Virus record (IMG/VR): IMGVR_UViG_3300020157_000001
Span: 27,206 to 91,205 of that record
Strand: one strand, 5' to 3'
Source of the DNA: a virus
Length of the DNA: 64,000 nucleotides
Shown here: positions 45,487-49,912 of the stretch, one piece after another
Position numbering within the stretch: position 1 is the stretch's first letter
Layout: the number at the start of each line of letters is the position of its first letter
The notes under the pieces: generated by a model
The model's input: the letters and a program-made list of their open reading frames with translations, nothing else
What the model was told of the DNA's origin: nothing
The model's database searches: none
Program-made: the position numbers and the translations under genes

Positions 45487-46642
45487 AGATCTTCCCATTA
45501 TATAAAGCAGCACCATTGTGGAACGGAACCTGCTCGTAGAAGAATCGGTGATCACCATCGGTCTCGTATGTTACTACGCCCAGTCCTTGCTGCCAGTCTT
45601 CTACAACTGTGAGGGGGCGACCGTGGAGGTCAAGAGCACCTTTGGTGGAGGGTACTTCGCCAGTGGTCTTAGCGAGACAGCCGGGGGACGCAGCCATGAT
45701 TGTCTTAGCACCATCCCACTTATCGAACGTCTGCTCTGCCCACTCACGGCGGTGAATGTGACCGTACAGGACGCTCGTCTTCTCGCTGTGCAAGTAGACA
45801 TGGGCGGTGCTCCCGCTGGACTTTACGCGGGTACCGTGGATGACCTTGAGTCGTTCGTTGACCCAGAACTTGCCAGCAGGATACCCAGCGATGTACTCCA
45901 CATCGGACTCGTCAAGTCTGCACAGGTGGGGGACGCTGAGAACAGGCCAGCCCTCAGGAGTATTGCCCTGACGGAGACCAAAGGCTGCTGCTGCATTATC
46001 TAAAATGTAGTTGCAAAGTCTTTCCTCATGGTTGCCAGCGAGCCACACGATGCGTGCTGATGGGGCAACAGCCCTAATGCGGAACATCAAGGTAGTTGCG
46101 TAGTCAATAGCTTCTTGGGTGGTGCGGTTGAATGCTGGGCTAAGCCTGTATTTGCCAAACTCTGGAAGGTCTAGGTTGTCACCGACTAATACGACTAGTT
46201 CTGGATTGATCGACTTAGTAATAGAAAGAGCAAGATCAATAGCATCTTCATCGTGGGTTGATACAAGCCCGTCCTTCCCTTGGAAGTATCCTATTTGCAT
46301 ATCGGGCCATATGACTGCCCGCTGAAACTGCAAAGATGCCTTAACAGCTCCTGCTTTAGGAGCTGGGATCTTGACAGATGGGCCGGGTTGTACCACGGGC
46401 CATTCGGGGCCGGATTCCCACTTAGGACTAAGGACGATGGAAGCCATGTCCTTAACTTCTAGCTCTTCGTAAGCCTTGCCATTGGCATCGGTCTTACCTA
46501 CTTTGGCAAGTCCCTGATAAAGACGAACGTCTTTAATACGATGCAGTTGTCCTACGTCACTCGGCTCAATGCCGTTACGGGTAAGAAGATCTCGTATCGC
46601 CCCAAGGCCGACAGCGTAATCAAGGTCATTGGCTAATGTCAC
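45476..46642 (-). CDS. Calcineurin-like metallophosphoesterase
   Basis: 388 residues. The five motifs are AVIWPDMQIGY (Asp of the first site, with Gln in place of His), LVVLVGDNLD (GD), WLAGNHEER (GNHE), KVIHGTR and LYGHIHRREW (GHxH). An N-terminal helical extension of about 120 residues is present, resembling the MPE/DNA-binding type encoded near terminase in other phages. The Gln replacing the first-site His is a known tolerated variant. Substrate is unknown; nucleic-acid or small-molecule phosphodiester cleavage is likely. Confidence 0.9.
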   Translation of the reverse strand: MTLANDLDYAVGLGAIRDLLTRNGIEPSDVGQLHRIKDVRLYQGLAKVGKTDANGKAYEELEVKDMASIVLSPKWESGPEWPVVQPGPSVKIPAPKAGAVKASLQFQRAVIWPDMQIGYFQGKDGLVSTHDEDAIDLALSITKSINPELVVLVGDNLDLPEFGKYRLSPAFNRTTQEAIDYATTLMFRIRAVAPSARIVWLAGNHEERLCNYILDNAAAAFGLRQGNTPEGWPVLSVPHLCRLDESDVEYIAGYPAGKFWVNERLKVIHGTRVKSSGSTAHVYLHSEKTSVLYGHIHRREWAEQTFDKWDGAKTIMAASPGCLAKTTGEVPSTKGALDLHGRPLTVVEDWQQGLGVVTYETDGDHRFFYEQVPFHNGAALYNGKIYGI

Positions 46643-46904
46643 AGGAGCACCTCTCGTTGATGTGCTCGGAGATTACTGTCCTGCCGATTTCATGCCCCCA
46701 AGAACTCAGGGACTGCTCTAGCCATGCAGCAGTAAACGCTCGCTTATGTACCTGAAGGCTCTTATCTTCCCGAGCTTTCTCCACGTACAGAACTAACGCT
46801 TCACTGGTCGCTGGGTCAAGAGCCTTAATAAGCTCACCGAGTTTGCATCGCTTGGGAAGCGATCCTTCACCGTGCTTACGAAGAAGATCATCTACAAGTG
46901 CCAC
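46626..46904 (-). CDS. Helix-turn-helix DNA-binding protein
   Basis: 92 residues, GTG start at 46904 with AGGAGAG just upstream. Helical throughout, with a C-terminal LSSWGHEIGRTVISEHINER that fits the helix-turn-helix and ends ...CSCDISQ, a pattern of phage HTH proteins (S-x-x-t-v-x-x-H...C-x-C). It is the first gene after the 46939-46968 promoter. It could regulate the late operon or act as a small-terminase-like component; nothing decides. Confidence 0.72.
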   Translation of the reverse strand: MALVDDLLRKHGEGSLPKRCKLGELIKALDPATSEALVLYVEKAREDKSLQVHKRAFTAAWLEQSLSSWGHEIGRTVISEHINERCSCDISQ

Positions 46905-46938: not shown

Positions 46939-46968
46939 ACTATAGCCGATATACCACCGTCATGTCAA
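46939..46968 (-). promoter_or_regulatory. Strong sigma70-like promoter for the late operon
   Basis: Minus-strand TTGACA (46963-46968, consensus) and TATAGT (46939-46944) separated by 18 bases, about 27-30 bases before the GTG of the HTH gene at 46904. The predicted start lies near 46932. It drives the 46904-to-43039 region (HTH, phosphoesterase, small gene, HNH, portal) and beyond. It lies in a clear intergenic gap, which supports it. Confidence 0.75.
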
Positions 46969-47002: not shown

Positions 47003-47107
47003 TTACTTGCTAACGGATTTCCTTGCCTTAGAGCACATAGCGCATTTGCATTTGCAGCCCTTCTCTGGCTTACCGGCCTTGCACTTACAATCACATGATG
47101 CACACAT
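47003..47107 (-). CDS. 34-residue metallothionein-like Cys-rich protein
   Basis: ATG at 47107, stop TAA at 47003. The 34 residues contain eight Cys in C-x2-C-x-C-x-C then C-x-C-x-C-x2-C (SCDCKC and GCKCKCAMC), with many Lys and no aromatic residue, the composition of small metallothioneins. It lies between the Dps/Lys-rich genes upstream and the late promoter downstream. The RBS is weak (AAAGAAAG). It could bind zinc, copper or cadmium, or be a zinc-knuckle regulator. The Cys pattern is certain; metal storage is inferred. Confidence 0.68.
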   Translation of the reverse strand: MCASCDCKCKAGKPEKGCKCKCAMCSKARKSVSK

Positions 47108-47129: not shown

Positions 47130-47405
47130 TTAGCAATCCCATGCCCGAAGGGACTTGTTGATTCTACTATTTGGATCATTAGCAGTCTTTGCAGAAGTGT
47201 TCTTCTTCTTCATGCCTTCCATACGATCACAGAACGACTCACGTCGTGCAGCACTCTTTGGGGACTTAGCTGCTTCGGCCTTCTTAACGGGGGGTTTCAG
47301 GTTGCTTCCGGGGTTGGCCTTCTCGTAGGACTTGCGCCCCTTCTCGTTCAGGCCACCCTTAGGATTCTTACCCTCTGCGCGAGTCCATGCTTCTGACTTA
47401 GCCAT
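47130..47405 (-). CDS. Lys-rich DUF6321-type protein
   Basis: 91 residues from ATG at 47405 (AAGGA six bases ahead); an ATG two codons earlier is too close to the ribosome site. The core EAWTRAEGKNPKGGLNEKGR followed by KSYEKANPGSNLKPPV is a short conserved module seen in phages and bacteria as a DUF. Overall pI is high, with Lys-Pro and Lys-Ala runs, so nucleic-acid binding is likely. It precedes the metallothionein-like gene by 22 bases and follows Dps by 9. Confidence 0.8.
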   Translation of the reverse strand: MAKSEAWTRAEGKNPKGGLNEKGRKSYEKANPGSNLKPPVKKAEAAKSPKSAARRESFCDRMEGMKKKNTSAKTANDPNSRINKSLRAWDC

Positions 47406-47414
47406 GCCCATTCC

Positions 47415-47849
47415 TTACTTAGTTGATGCTCGGAGCTGCCAGCCCCATTTGCTATGCATATCAATACGTTCTGCTAAGAAGTTAGCGATGCCCTGCTCGT
47501 CCTCATCCATTGCTGCTTTGAACGTCTTATTCAAACTAGCAATGATGGAGACGTTTGACTTAAGCAGAGCTTTAGCCATAGCGCTAGGGGACTGTTGGGC
47601 TGCACCAAAGTCGAAGGTACGAAGGCTCATAAACTGCTTCAGAGCAAAGGGGGCGTACTGGTCAAGTTTGCGAATGTTCTCAGCAATGGGGTCGATGGAG
47701 GAATACACATCCTCATAGATCGACTCAAAGAGAGAGTGATACTGAGAGAAGTCCTGACCCTCTACGTTCCAGTGGTAACCATGCGCCTGAAAATACATGG
47801 TTACCGCATCTCCCAAAAGGGATGAAAGGGCTTCAGTTAGCTTGCTCAT
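47415..47849 (-). CDS. dps-like: Dps/ferritin-like protein
   Basis: 144 residues. AVTMYFQAHGYHWNVEGQDF then SQYHSLFESIYEDVYSSIDPIAENI matches the Dps signature (H-xx-H-W-N-V-x-G-xx-F and the D-xx-A-E of the ferroxidase site, here D-P-I-A-E). The family stores iron and protects DNA from peroxide as a dodecamer, though phage versions are often virion-associated or truncated. The length is slightly under the usual 160-170. It sits beside the metallothionein-like gene, giving a possible metal/oxidative-stress cassette. Confidence 0.9.
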   Translation of the reverse strand: MSKLTEALSSLLGDAVTMYFQAHGYHWNVEGQDFSQYHSLFESIYEDVYSSIDPIAENIRKLDQYAPFALKQFMSLRTFDFGAAQQSPSAMAKALLKSNVSIIASLNKTFKAAMDEDEQGIANFLAERIDMHSKWGWQLRASTK

Positions 47850-47862
47850 GTTGAGCTATATC

Positions 47863-48267
47863 TCAGCCTTCGACGCGCATCTTATTGGGTCGAGCCTGAT
47901 GACCGCCGCTGTTGAACGCACGCTCCCAGCCGCCCAACGACGAACCGACATCGCCACTCTGTGTACCGATAACGAAGTCGCTCAGAACTTCAGGAGCCTC
48001 AACCCATGCAGCCGAGCCGATGTGGGCGCGCTCACGCATGGTGACTTCTGCACGCTTGTAGTTCGACTCCACGATCTGATGATTGCGGCTGTCGCCTGCG
48101 GTGTCTTGGTATGCGCCAATGCCAAAGTCGCGAGGAACATCGGTCTCGGTAGCAACGCCTTCTTCAAAACGAAGAGGGCCACGGTTGCCGGGGATGTTTG
48201 GAGCCATGGTGCGCTCAAAGACATTAATGCCTTTTTCTGGTGCGCCATTCGATGGTGAAATTGCCAT
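47863..48267 (-). CDS. Putative small virion protein near terminase
   Basis: 134 residues from ATG at 48267 with AGGAGGAATCCAC directly upstream, one of the best ribosome sites in the window, hinting at high expression. Sequence is polar, with blocks PEKGINVFERTMAPNIPGN and RDFGIGAYQDTAG, rich in Gly, Pro and Asn. The strong RBS and location beside the terminase suggest a structural or accessory virion protein. No known family. Confidence 0.68.
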   Translation of the reverse strand: MAISPSNGAPEKGINVFERTMAPNIPGNRGPLRFEEGVATETDVPRDFGIGAYQDTAGDSRNHQIVESNYKRAEVTMRERAHIGSAAWVEAPEVLSDFVIGTQSGDVGSSLGGWERAFNSGGHQARPNKMRVEG

Positions 48268-48358
48268 GTGGATTCCTCCTAGAGGGTTTACTGTAGTATA
48301 AGAGTAGCACATATGAGCTTATATGAGGTGAAAACCTGTAGCCTCTGGATATATAAGA

Positions 48359-49912
48359 TCAGCGGAAGAACGGGTTATCTGATGCAGTTACAGTGGGCAT
48401 GGTGTCACGTATGGACATGGAGCACGCAATGGCTAAAGAATCGGGGTAGTCGTCAAAGGCACCCCTCTCGTCGGGGGCAGCAGCCAACATGTACGGACCT
48501 CGCTGCACCTTCTCAAGGTCGCTCATCTGCTGGTTGAACCTCTTCCAAGGTCGGGTGCGGCGAGCTTTACTATGGCCGGGTACCAACATCTGGTCTCGCT
48601 GAATCAACTGAGTCAAATGAGTCCATCGGTCGTTCTGAGTTTTCGCATCTGACGAAACAGACACGACCTCACATTGCGGGAGCAAAAGAGCTAAACGCTC
48701 GGCTACAGCACCGCCAACGCCTTGAGCATCGACCCCCACTCGGAGGATGTTGTATTGACGTAGGAAGTCAACGATCTCAAAGTACTGAGTCTCCCACTCC
48801 ACATTGTTGATCTCCAACCAGTTGAGTACTCGGTGCTCATAGAACCCAAAGCCGTCTGGATGATCCCAGTCAACCCAAACGGGGGTGACGATGGTGGAGT
48901 CGTTACTACGAGCAACGTCGATACCTACAACAATGGGGGTCTTCCACCAAGTCTTGACAAGTCCCATCGACGGGTCGTACATCCGCTCAAGGCGCTCATC
49001 CGACACGAACATGCCCTTCTCCAGAAGCCACTGGTTCGCATACGACATGCGGAACTCATCGGAGTCCTCACCGATACGAAGCTTCTCTTTGGCAATGTAC
49101 TTAGCGTAGTTAGGGTTGTATTTGGCTGCGATCTTCCAGTCATACTCATGGTGTGACTGGCGGTGGCCGCGGGCGCTGTTGATGTCTCGTCGCCTGTTGT
49201 ACTGGATAGCTGCGTAGAAGTATGACTTCTCTCGACGGGCGGTTCCACCAAGTACAAGGGTTCCGTTGTTCCACGCAAGCATGGGCTTGATGGAACGCTT
49301 AATCATGCCCTCGTCTGCTTCTTGGGCCTCGTCAATGAACGCAAAGTGATACGTCTTAGATTCAATCTTTGCCTTGGGGTTGCAGGTCTGCATACGGCAG
49401 AACGAACCGCTACGACGCAGGGAGATGATCTTTCCCTTACCTCGGCTACCTCCCGCATGAGCCTTATCGTCAATCTCTGGATCTAAGAGAAAGTCAACTG
49501 CGTGGTCACTCGTCAGCTTAGATACGACTCGTCCAAACACTGTATCTGCCTGATCTTCGGTGGGGGCGAACACGCCTACCATGAATCCCTGTTTGAACTT
49601 GCCTAACCATACGGGATAGACATCAGCCAAGCGAGGGAGAATAACCATCAGCCCAGCGATGACATTAGAGAGAATCTCGGACTTGCCGCTCTGACGAGTA
49701 GCGATGATAGTCTTCTCTTCACCATCACCAAGGACGATGCTTTCGATGATGTTGTACGCAATAGGTGCTTGATATGGAAAGAACTTAGTATCACAAAAGG
49801 TTTCAATGAATACAAGCAGCTTCTTGACAAGATCGTCTACAAATTCAGAACTAGTTTCATCTAGGGCTGACTTGTCTTCCTCGTCATCTACGTCAGAAGC
49901 AATAGTGCTCAT
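48359..49912 (-). CDS. terL: Large terminase subunit
   Basis: 517 residues. The ATPase domain has ATRQSGKSE (Walker A, residues 71-79) and the Walker B stretch HFAFIDEAQEAD, followed by GGTARREKSYF (coupling motif). The nuclease domain has VVGIDVARSND (first Asp), GVDAQGVGGAVAERL and a later Asp near AFDDYPDSL. It packages DNA into the prohead through the portal and cuts the concatemer. Its start abuts the upstream gene's stop (TAGATG), giving coupling. Confidence 0.95.
   Translation of the reverse strand: MSTIASDVDDEEDKSALDETSSEFVDDLVKKLLVFIETFCDTKFFPYQAPIAYNIIESIVLGDGEEKTIIATRQSGKSEILSNVIAGLMVILPRLADVYPVWLGKFKQGFMVGVFAPTEDQADTVFGRVVSKLTSDHAVDFLLDPEIDDKAHAGGSRGKGKIISLRRSGSFCRMQTCNPKAKIESKTYHFAFIDEAQEADEGMIKRSIKPMLAWNNGTLVLGGTARREKSYFYAAIQYNRRRDINSARGHRQSHHEYDWKIAAKYNPNYAKYIAKEKLRIGEDSDEFRMSYANQWLLEKGMFVSDERLERMYDPSMGLVKTWWKTPIVVGIDVARSNDSTIVTPVWVDWDHPDGFGFYEHRVLNWLEINNVEWETQYFEIVDFLRQYNILRVGVDAQGVGGAVAERLALLLPQCEVVSVSSDAKTQNDRWTHLTQLIQRDQMLVPGHSKARRTRPWKRFNQQMSDLEKVQRGPYMLAAAPDERGAFDDYPDSLAIACSMSIRDTMPTVTASDNPFFR

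Follow-up and report, generated by a model that had tools for sequence, protein, structure and literature searches.

We identified a 34-residue metallothionein-like (MT-like) gene encoding MCASCDCKCKAGKPEKGCKCKCAMCSKARKSVSK at positions 47003-47107, on the minus strand, of a 64,000-nucleotide stretch of virus DNA (hereafter the window), taken from a virus record of 91,205 bases (bases 27206-91205). The assignment rests on the translation, on at least 95 distinct homologous proteins and on three sister loci (L001, L002 and L003), and the peptide is present once in that record. Translation places its ATG at 47107-47105 and its stop at 47005-47003, and reveals nothing notable on the plus strand of the same interval. 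Eight cysteines, at residues 2, 5, 7, 9, 18, 20, 22 and 25, are spaced C-x2-C-x-C-x-C-x8-C-x-C-x-C-x2-C, so that the two halves are mirror images. Cysteine thus makes up 8 of the 34 residues, largely in Cys-x-Cys motifs with adjoining lysines; ten Lys or Arg residues stand alongside the cysteines, and aromatic residues and histidine are absent. An earlier sequence-only reading had described an ATG frame of this length with eight cysteines in these two clusters, leaving the strand unstated, and the minus-strand frame matches that description exactly. In 60 first-order shuffles of the window we found neither the eight-cysteine scaffold nor any eight cysteines within 25 residues, whereas the real window holds one such peptide.

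The same frame is open upstream as far as an ATG at 47179, which would give a 58-residue product. We rejected this start since it overlaps the end of the neighbouring DUF6321 gene and adds residues that are not conserved, and since the DNA upstream of the ATG at 47107 is unrelated in L001 and L003. The four close relatives (the window and its three sister loci) have terminases that are 97-98% identical, and all four have the whole 34-residue frame starting from one and the same ATG, while genes for DUF6321, a phrog_34011-like protein and a 496-residue protein vary around it. This persistence fixes the start at 47107 and indicates that the gene is discrete and that the 58-residue version is wrong. 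The Shine-Dalgarno sequence of the window copy is weak. With the first cysteine already at residue 2, there is no room for a signal peptide.

All identified neighbours lie on the minus strand. Upstream are the large terminase subunit (48359-49912; PF17289 and several PHROG terminase families), which is 46% identical to that of Streptomyces phage BRock, a conserved 149-residue protein with no assigned function (47863-48312; kept in L001 and L003), a 144-residue Dps/ferritin-like protein (47415-47849; PF00210, E=6e-18; phrog_3636, annotated as a DNA binding protein) two genes from the MT-like gene, and a 93-residue small basic DUF6321 protein (47130-47411; PF19846, E=3e-25) that stops 22 nt before the MT-like ATG. 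No homologue from a cultured phage in the collection reaches 60% identity with the Dps-like ferritin of the window. The DUF6321 domain is small, basic and unstudied; it matches 474 cultured cyanophage and pelagiphage records, and in Syn9 gp114 and in S-SCSM1 it is C-terminal in a larger protein adjoining structural or terminase genes. The next gene downstream encodes a 92-residue protein with no assigned function (46626-46904; kept in L001 and L003). Between it and the MT-like gene lies a sigma-70-like promoter, TTGACA-18-TATAGT (46939-46968), with 11 of 12 consensus matches in a region whose total of such sites equals the number expected by chance. L001 and L002 retain both hexamers despite differences at some flanking bases, and the position of the promoter suggests that the MT-like gene is the last of its transcription unit. 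The window and L002 (for its identified genes) share the order TerL, 149-residue gene, Dps, DUF6321, MT-like gene, 92-residue gene; L001 has this order without DUF6321, its Dps gene stopping 14 nt before the MT-like ATG; and L003 has a 56-residue phrog_34011-type basic gene upstream and the 496-residue gene downstream.

A search for homologues in other phages, which the sequence-only reading had proposed as a check, bore out that the gene is real: eight-cysteine pattern scans, each returning at least about 120 stretches, located the scaffold in more than 100 IMG/VR phage contigs, with the cysteines conserved. Scaling from a fully scanned IMG/VR subset (25 stretches; the subset accounts for 14 of the 119 stretches listed) gives an estimate of roughly 200 contigs. 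When the scan was anchored on an ATG, nearly all matches listed formed one coherent family with the consensus MCAKCGCKCKxGKPxKGCKCxCATCKxAR; the unanchored scan also picked up poly-cysteine noise, and many non-ATG matches to the loose pattern were discarded as low-complexity cysteine runs. Contigs other than that of the window contribute at least 95 distinct member proteins among the matches listed. The window peptide follows the family rule MC-x2-C-x-C-x-C-x8-C-x-C-x-C-x2-C with its central KGCKC motif. The family core is 32% Cys and 20% Lys, and among the matches listed none of 95 members has an aromatic residue in its first 30 positions and four have a histidine there.

Conservation of the cysteines was also tested without assuming it, by searching each half of the scaffold separately. 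The C-terminal half retrieved 104 distinct matches among those listed, all with the four N-terminal cysteines in register, and the N-terminal half retrieved 87 distinct matches in a complete scan, 86 of them with the four C-terminal cysteines in register; the sole exception looks like a frameshift. The second result is the cleaner one because its scan was complete, while the pool for the first already contained earlier loci. In an alignment of 37 members, 11 columns are invariant, K16 and G17 among them, and K19 is almost invariant. At non-cysteine codons pN/pS was 0.15 in close pairs, which are not independent of one another, and these codons are under purifying selection.

Most MT-like genes show stop-start coupling to a small basic gene. 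At 91 of 100 loci the upstream stop and the ATG are at most 2 nt apart, a TAATG overlap occurs at 58 of 103, and SD-like motifs precede 24 of 103 starts against a background of 7%. ORFs directly upstream are small and basic, with a median of 56 residues and 27% K+R. The short length of the ORF and the weak Shine-Dalgarno sequence of the window copy would fit a chance open frame, but the shuffles, the pN/pS value, the upstream coupling, the cysteine register and the persistence in the sister loci all speak against one. Family-wide conservation removes chance as an explanation, and this reading, to which we give almost no credence, is in practice refuted by conservation and by changes that, judging from the codon comparisons, are biased towards synonymous ones.

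Most members are stand-alone peptides of 28-36 residues. Others reach about 70-90 residues with a Lys-rich tail, and a third form is fused at the N-terminus of proteins of 138-352 residues, many with Gly-rich hydrophobic stretches. The fusions in L189, L273, L287, L291, L293, L306, L338, L360, L366 and L379 have recurring VEK/VSK motifs. The window copy terminates in ...ARKSVSK, at which point the fused member of L189 continues as ...ARQSVSKGFLVSK... In L169, L227, L256 and L284 the MT-like gene is directly preceded by a "half" version, MCxxCGC-KKK followed by a Lys-rich tail. This tail resembles those of the long forms in L302 and L336 and suggests tail swapping.

Profile searches of Pfam, PHROG and NCBIfam retrieved nothing for the family, and a Pfam scan of 37 members at E<=10 returned zero matches, PF00131 included. 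The same scan recognised human MT2A (PF00131, 6e-23) and SmtA (PF02069, 5e-21) as positive controls, which places the family outside the known metallothionein Pfam families; it did not recognise the 26-residue Neurospora metallothionein, so very short metallothioneins can escape it. Profile homology to known metallothioneins was rejected because their alignments to the family profile were no better than those of their shuffled versions. Sequence and fold searches of the PDB with the MT-like peptide found nothing. Among cultured phages, tblastn gave only a marginal match (E=10) to a faecal phage and the family consensus gave zero matches, in searches where masking may hide short, low-complexity queries; the BRock and S-SCSM1 records gave no MT-like match in a search run without a positive control. 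The sole match to the exact MC-start scaffold in about 85,000 prokaryote genomes, L382, was rejected as a poly-cysteine run in a Flavobacteriaceae MAG. The exact scaffold is restricted to viruses in the collections searched, and the family is previously undescribed and missing from Pfam, NCBIfam, PHROG and the cultured-phage records searched. Phage metallothioneins had been called rarely described, which understates the case, since we found none among the openly licensed papers searched. A review of phage small proteins mentions neither metals nor cysteine (PMC11323111).

In its make-up the peptide resembles metallothioneins generally, including mammalian PF00131 proteins and the Neurospora protein, which are likewise short, rich in Cys-x-Cys and have Lys next to Cys; like them, the window copy lacks aromatic residues and histidine, whereas the spacing of its cysteines, C-x2-C-x-C-x-C-x8-C-x-C-x-C-x2-C, differs from theirs. 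SmtA/BmtA proteins (PF02069) are similarly small, bacterial-type cytosolic and Cys-rich, but SmtA has nine cysteines together with His and aromatic residues and matches PF02069, while the window peptide lacks both of these residue types and has no such match. Mycobacterial MymT is also small and Cys-rich; it has seven cysteines with a spacing unlike the phage scaffold, and contains His and aromatic residues. CXC (Tesmin/TSO1) domains share Cys-x-Cys motifs and basic residues, and theirs form a Zn-thiolate cluster. Their signature is C-x-C-[KR]-K-S-x-C, and in that form it occurs in none of the 95 members, which also lack a Pfam match to the domain. The window peptide has the sequence features expected of metallothioneins as a functional class, namely short length, a high content of cysteine in Cys-x-Cys and Cys-x2-Cys, and few or no aromatic residues. 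The term metallothionein-like therefore holds for a real, conserved small gene with a metallothionein-type make-up, though it lies outside every catalogued metallothionein family tested. It is plausible from this composition that the peptide works like a metallothionein, without being a member of a known family.

Most carriers have contractile tails and are distant relatives of Streptomyces phage BRock; among cultured phages, the terminases closest to that of the window are those of BRock and its relatives (46% identity). The window phage, which is uncultured, encodes a sheath as well as an SPP1-type portal and a capsid protein. Among 21 long carrier contigs, a contractile-tail sheath domain is found in 18, DUF6321 in 13, a terminase 51-75% identical to that of the window in 12, and Dps above the cut-off in five. 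At 35 of 56 well-flanked loci tail-completion-like and tail-sheath genes lie downstream of the MT-like gene; collagen-like genes are nearby at 15 of the 56, DUF6321 is closely upstream at 11 and Dps is present at six. The gene context is one of late structural genes and small Lys-rich proteins, with DUF6321 and sometimes Dps. The carriers of fused forms G005 and G008 have neither a terminase nor a sheath match, indicating that the MT-like domain crosses lineages. In addition, among 14 contigs of 43-99 kb with a related terminase, several being fragments, only L003 carries the gene and the other 13 lack it; the gene is thus accessory cargo and not a core part.

We consider it barely better than an even proposition that this accessory gene of contractile-tailed phages encodes a stand-alone, cytosolic metal-thiolate peptide with MT-like buffering late in infection. 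The eight thiolates of its two mirror-image clusters (CxxCxCxC ... CxCxCxxC) would wrap a small number of d10 metal ions, either Zn(II) or, under stress, Cu(I) or Cd(II), with the ten Lys/Arg residues offsetting the thiolate charge. We infer metal binding and such a fold from the composition, the exact cysteine spacing and the lack of a hydrophobic core. The gene neighbourhood suggests late expression, alongside structural proteins, small basic proteins and, in the window lineage, the Dps-like ferritin. The peptide may buffer metal and limit thiol- or Fenton-type damage, both to phage DNA and to virions under assembly. A metal-buffering, damage-limiting role is favoured because the gene is accessory, is mostly stand-alone and lies near Dps in the window lineage. 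Several results count against this reading. The AlphaFold2 model of the peptide is ordered, with a basic C-terminal helix (pLDDT 83), and this order, the invariant K16 and G17 and the near-invariant K19 exceed what a classical metallothionein needs; the N-terminal fusions to larger Gly-rich proteins suggest a domain usable as a module; and Dps was not found in most carrier contigs.

The strongest rival, which the present data do not separate from a buffer, is a zinc-folded member of the small basic set, and we regard it as possible but appreciably less probable. The eight cysteines would coordinate two or three structural Zn ions in a module that binds DNA, RNA or a virion protein. This module would belong to a group of short, mutually interchangeable Lys-rich proteins located between the head/neck and tail genes, the others being DUF6321, the PNLVDN protein phrog_34011 and a CWxGY...VPNCVP protein. 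Consistent with this are the small, basic ORFs immediately upstream, the presence of DUF6321 in the majority of long carriers, and the position of cyanophage DUF6321 as the C-terminus of a larger protein adjoining structural or terminase genes, annotated in S-SCSM1 as a virion protein. PHROG profiles combine VPNCVP and DUF6321 modules within a single protein, the MT-like domain is itself N-terminal in larger fusion proteins, and the conserved non-cysteine residues and predicted helix would fit too. On the other hand, a Cys-x-Cys-rich eight-cysteine layout without a hydrophobic or aromatic core is atypical for zinc fingers, the PDB offered no structural match, and the patchy distribution is contrary to a core virion part. 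Alternatively, the cysteines may serve as a reservoir of reductant against late-infection oxidative stress, metal binding being incidental. The high cysteine density and the Dps-like neighbour in the window lineage are in keeping with such a thiol/redox peptide, but a simple reservoir does not need all eight cysteines to keep their exact spacing and Dps is not general across carriers, making this quite improbable.

If the metallothionein-like reading is true, this is the first clear phage-encoded peptide family of its kind that we have found, with an estimated 200 or so metagenomic phage contigs, in a field where phage metal handling during infection is little explored. Short Cys-rich genes can be hidden by gene callers and low-complexity filters, as here, and a peptide of 34 residues can be directly synthesised and tested. 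A bolder and rather unlikely extension is that this is a virus-born metallothionein family without a cellular counterpart, carried in a cassette of very small, interchangeable basic proteins (in some lineages with Dps) and made late by contractile-tailed phages, which would protect or condense DNA and possibly travel in the virion to the next host. As a separate observation, the L300 record (G008) has at 112453-112869 a Dps-like frame interrupted by one TAG, which could reflect stop-codon recoding or a broken gene.
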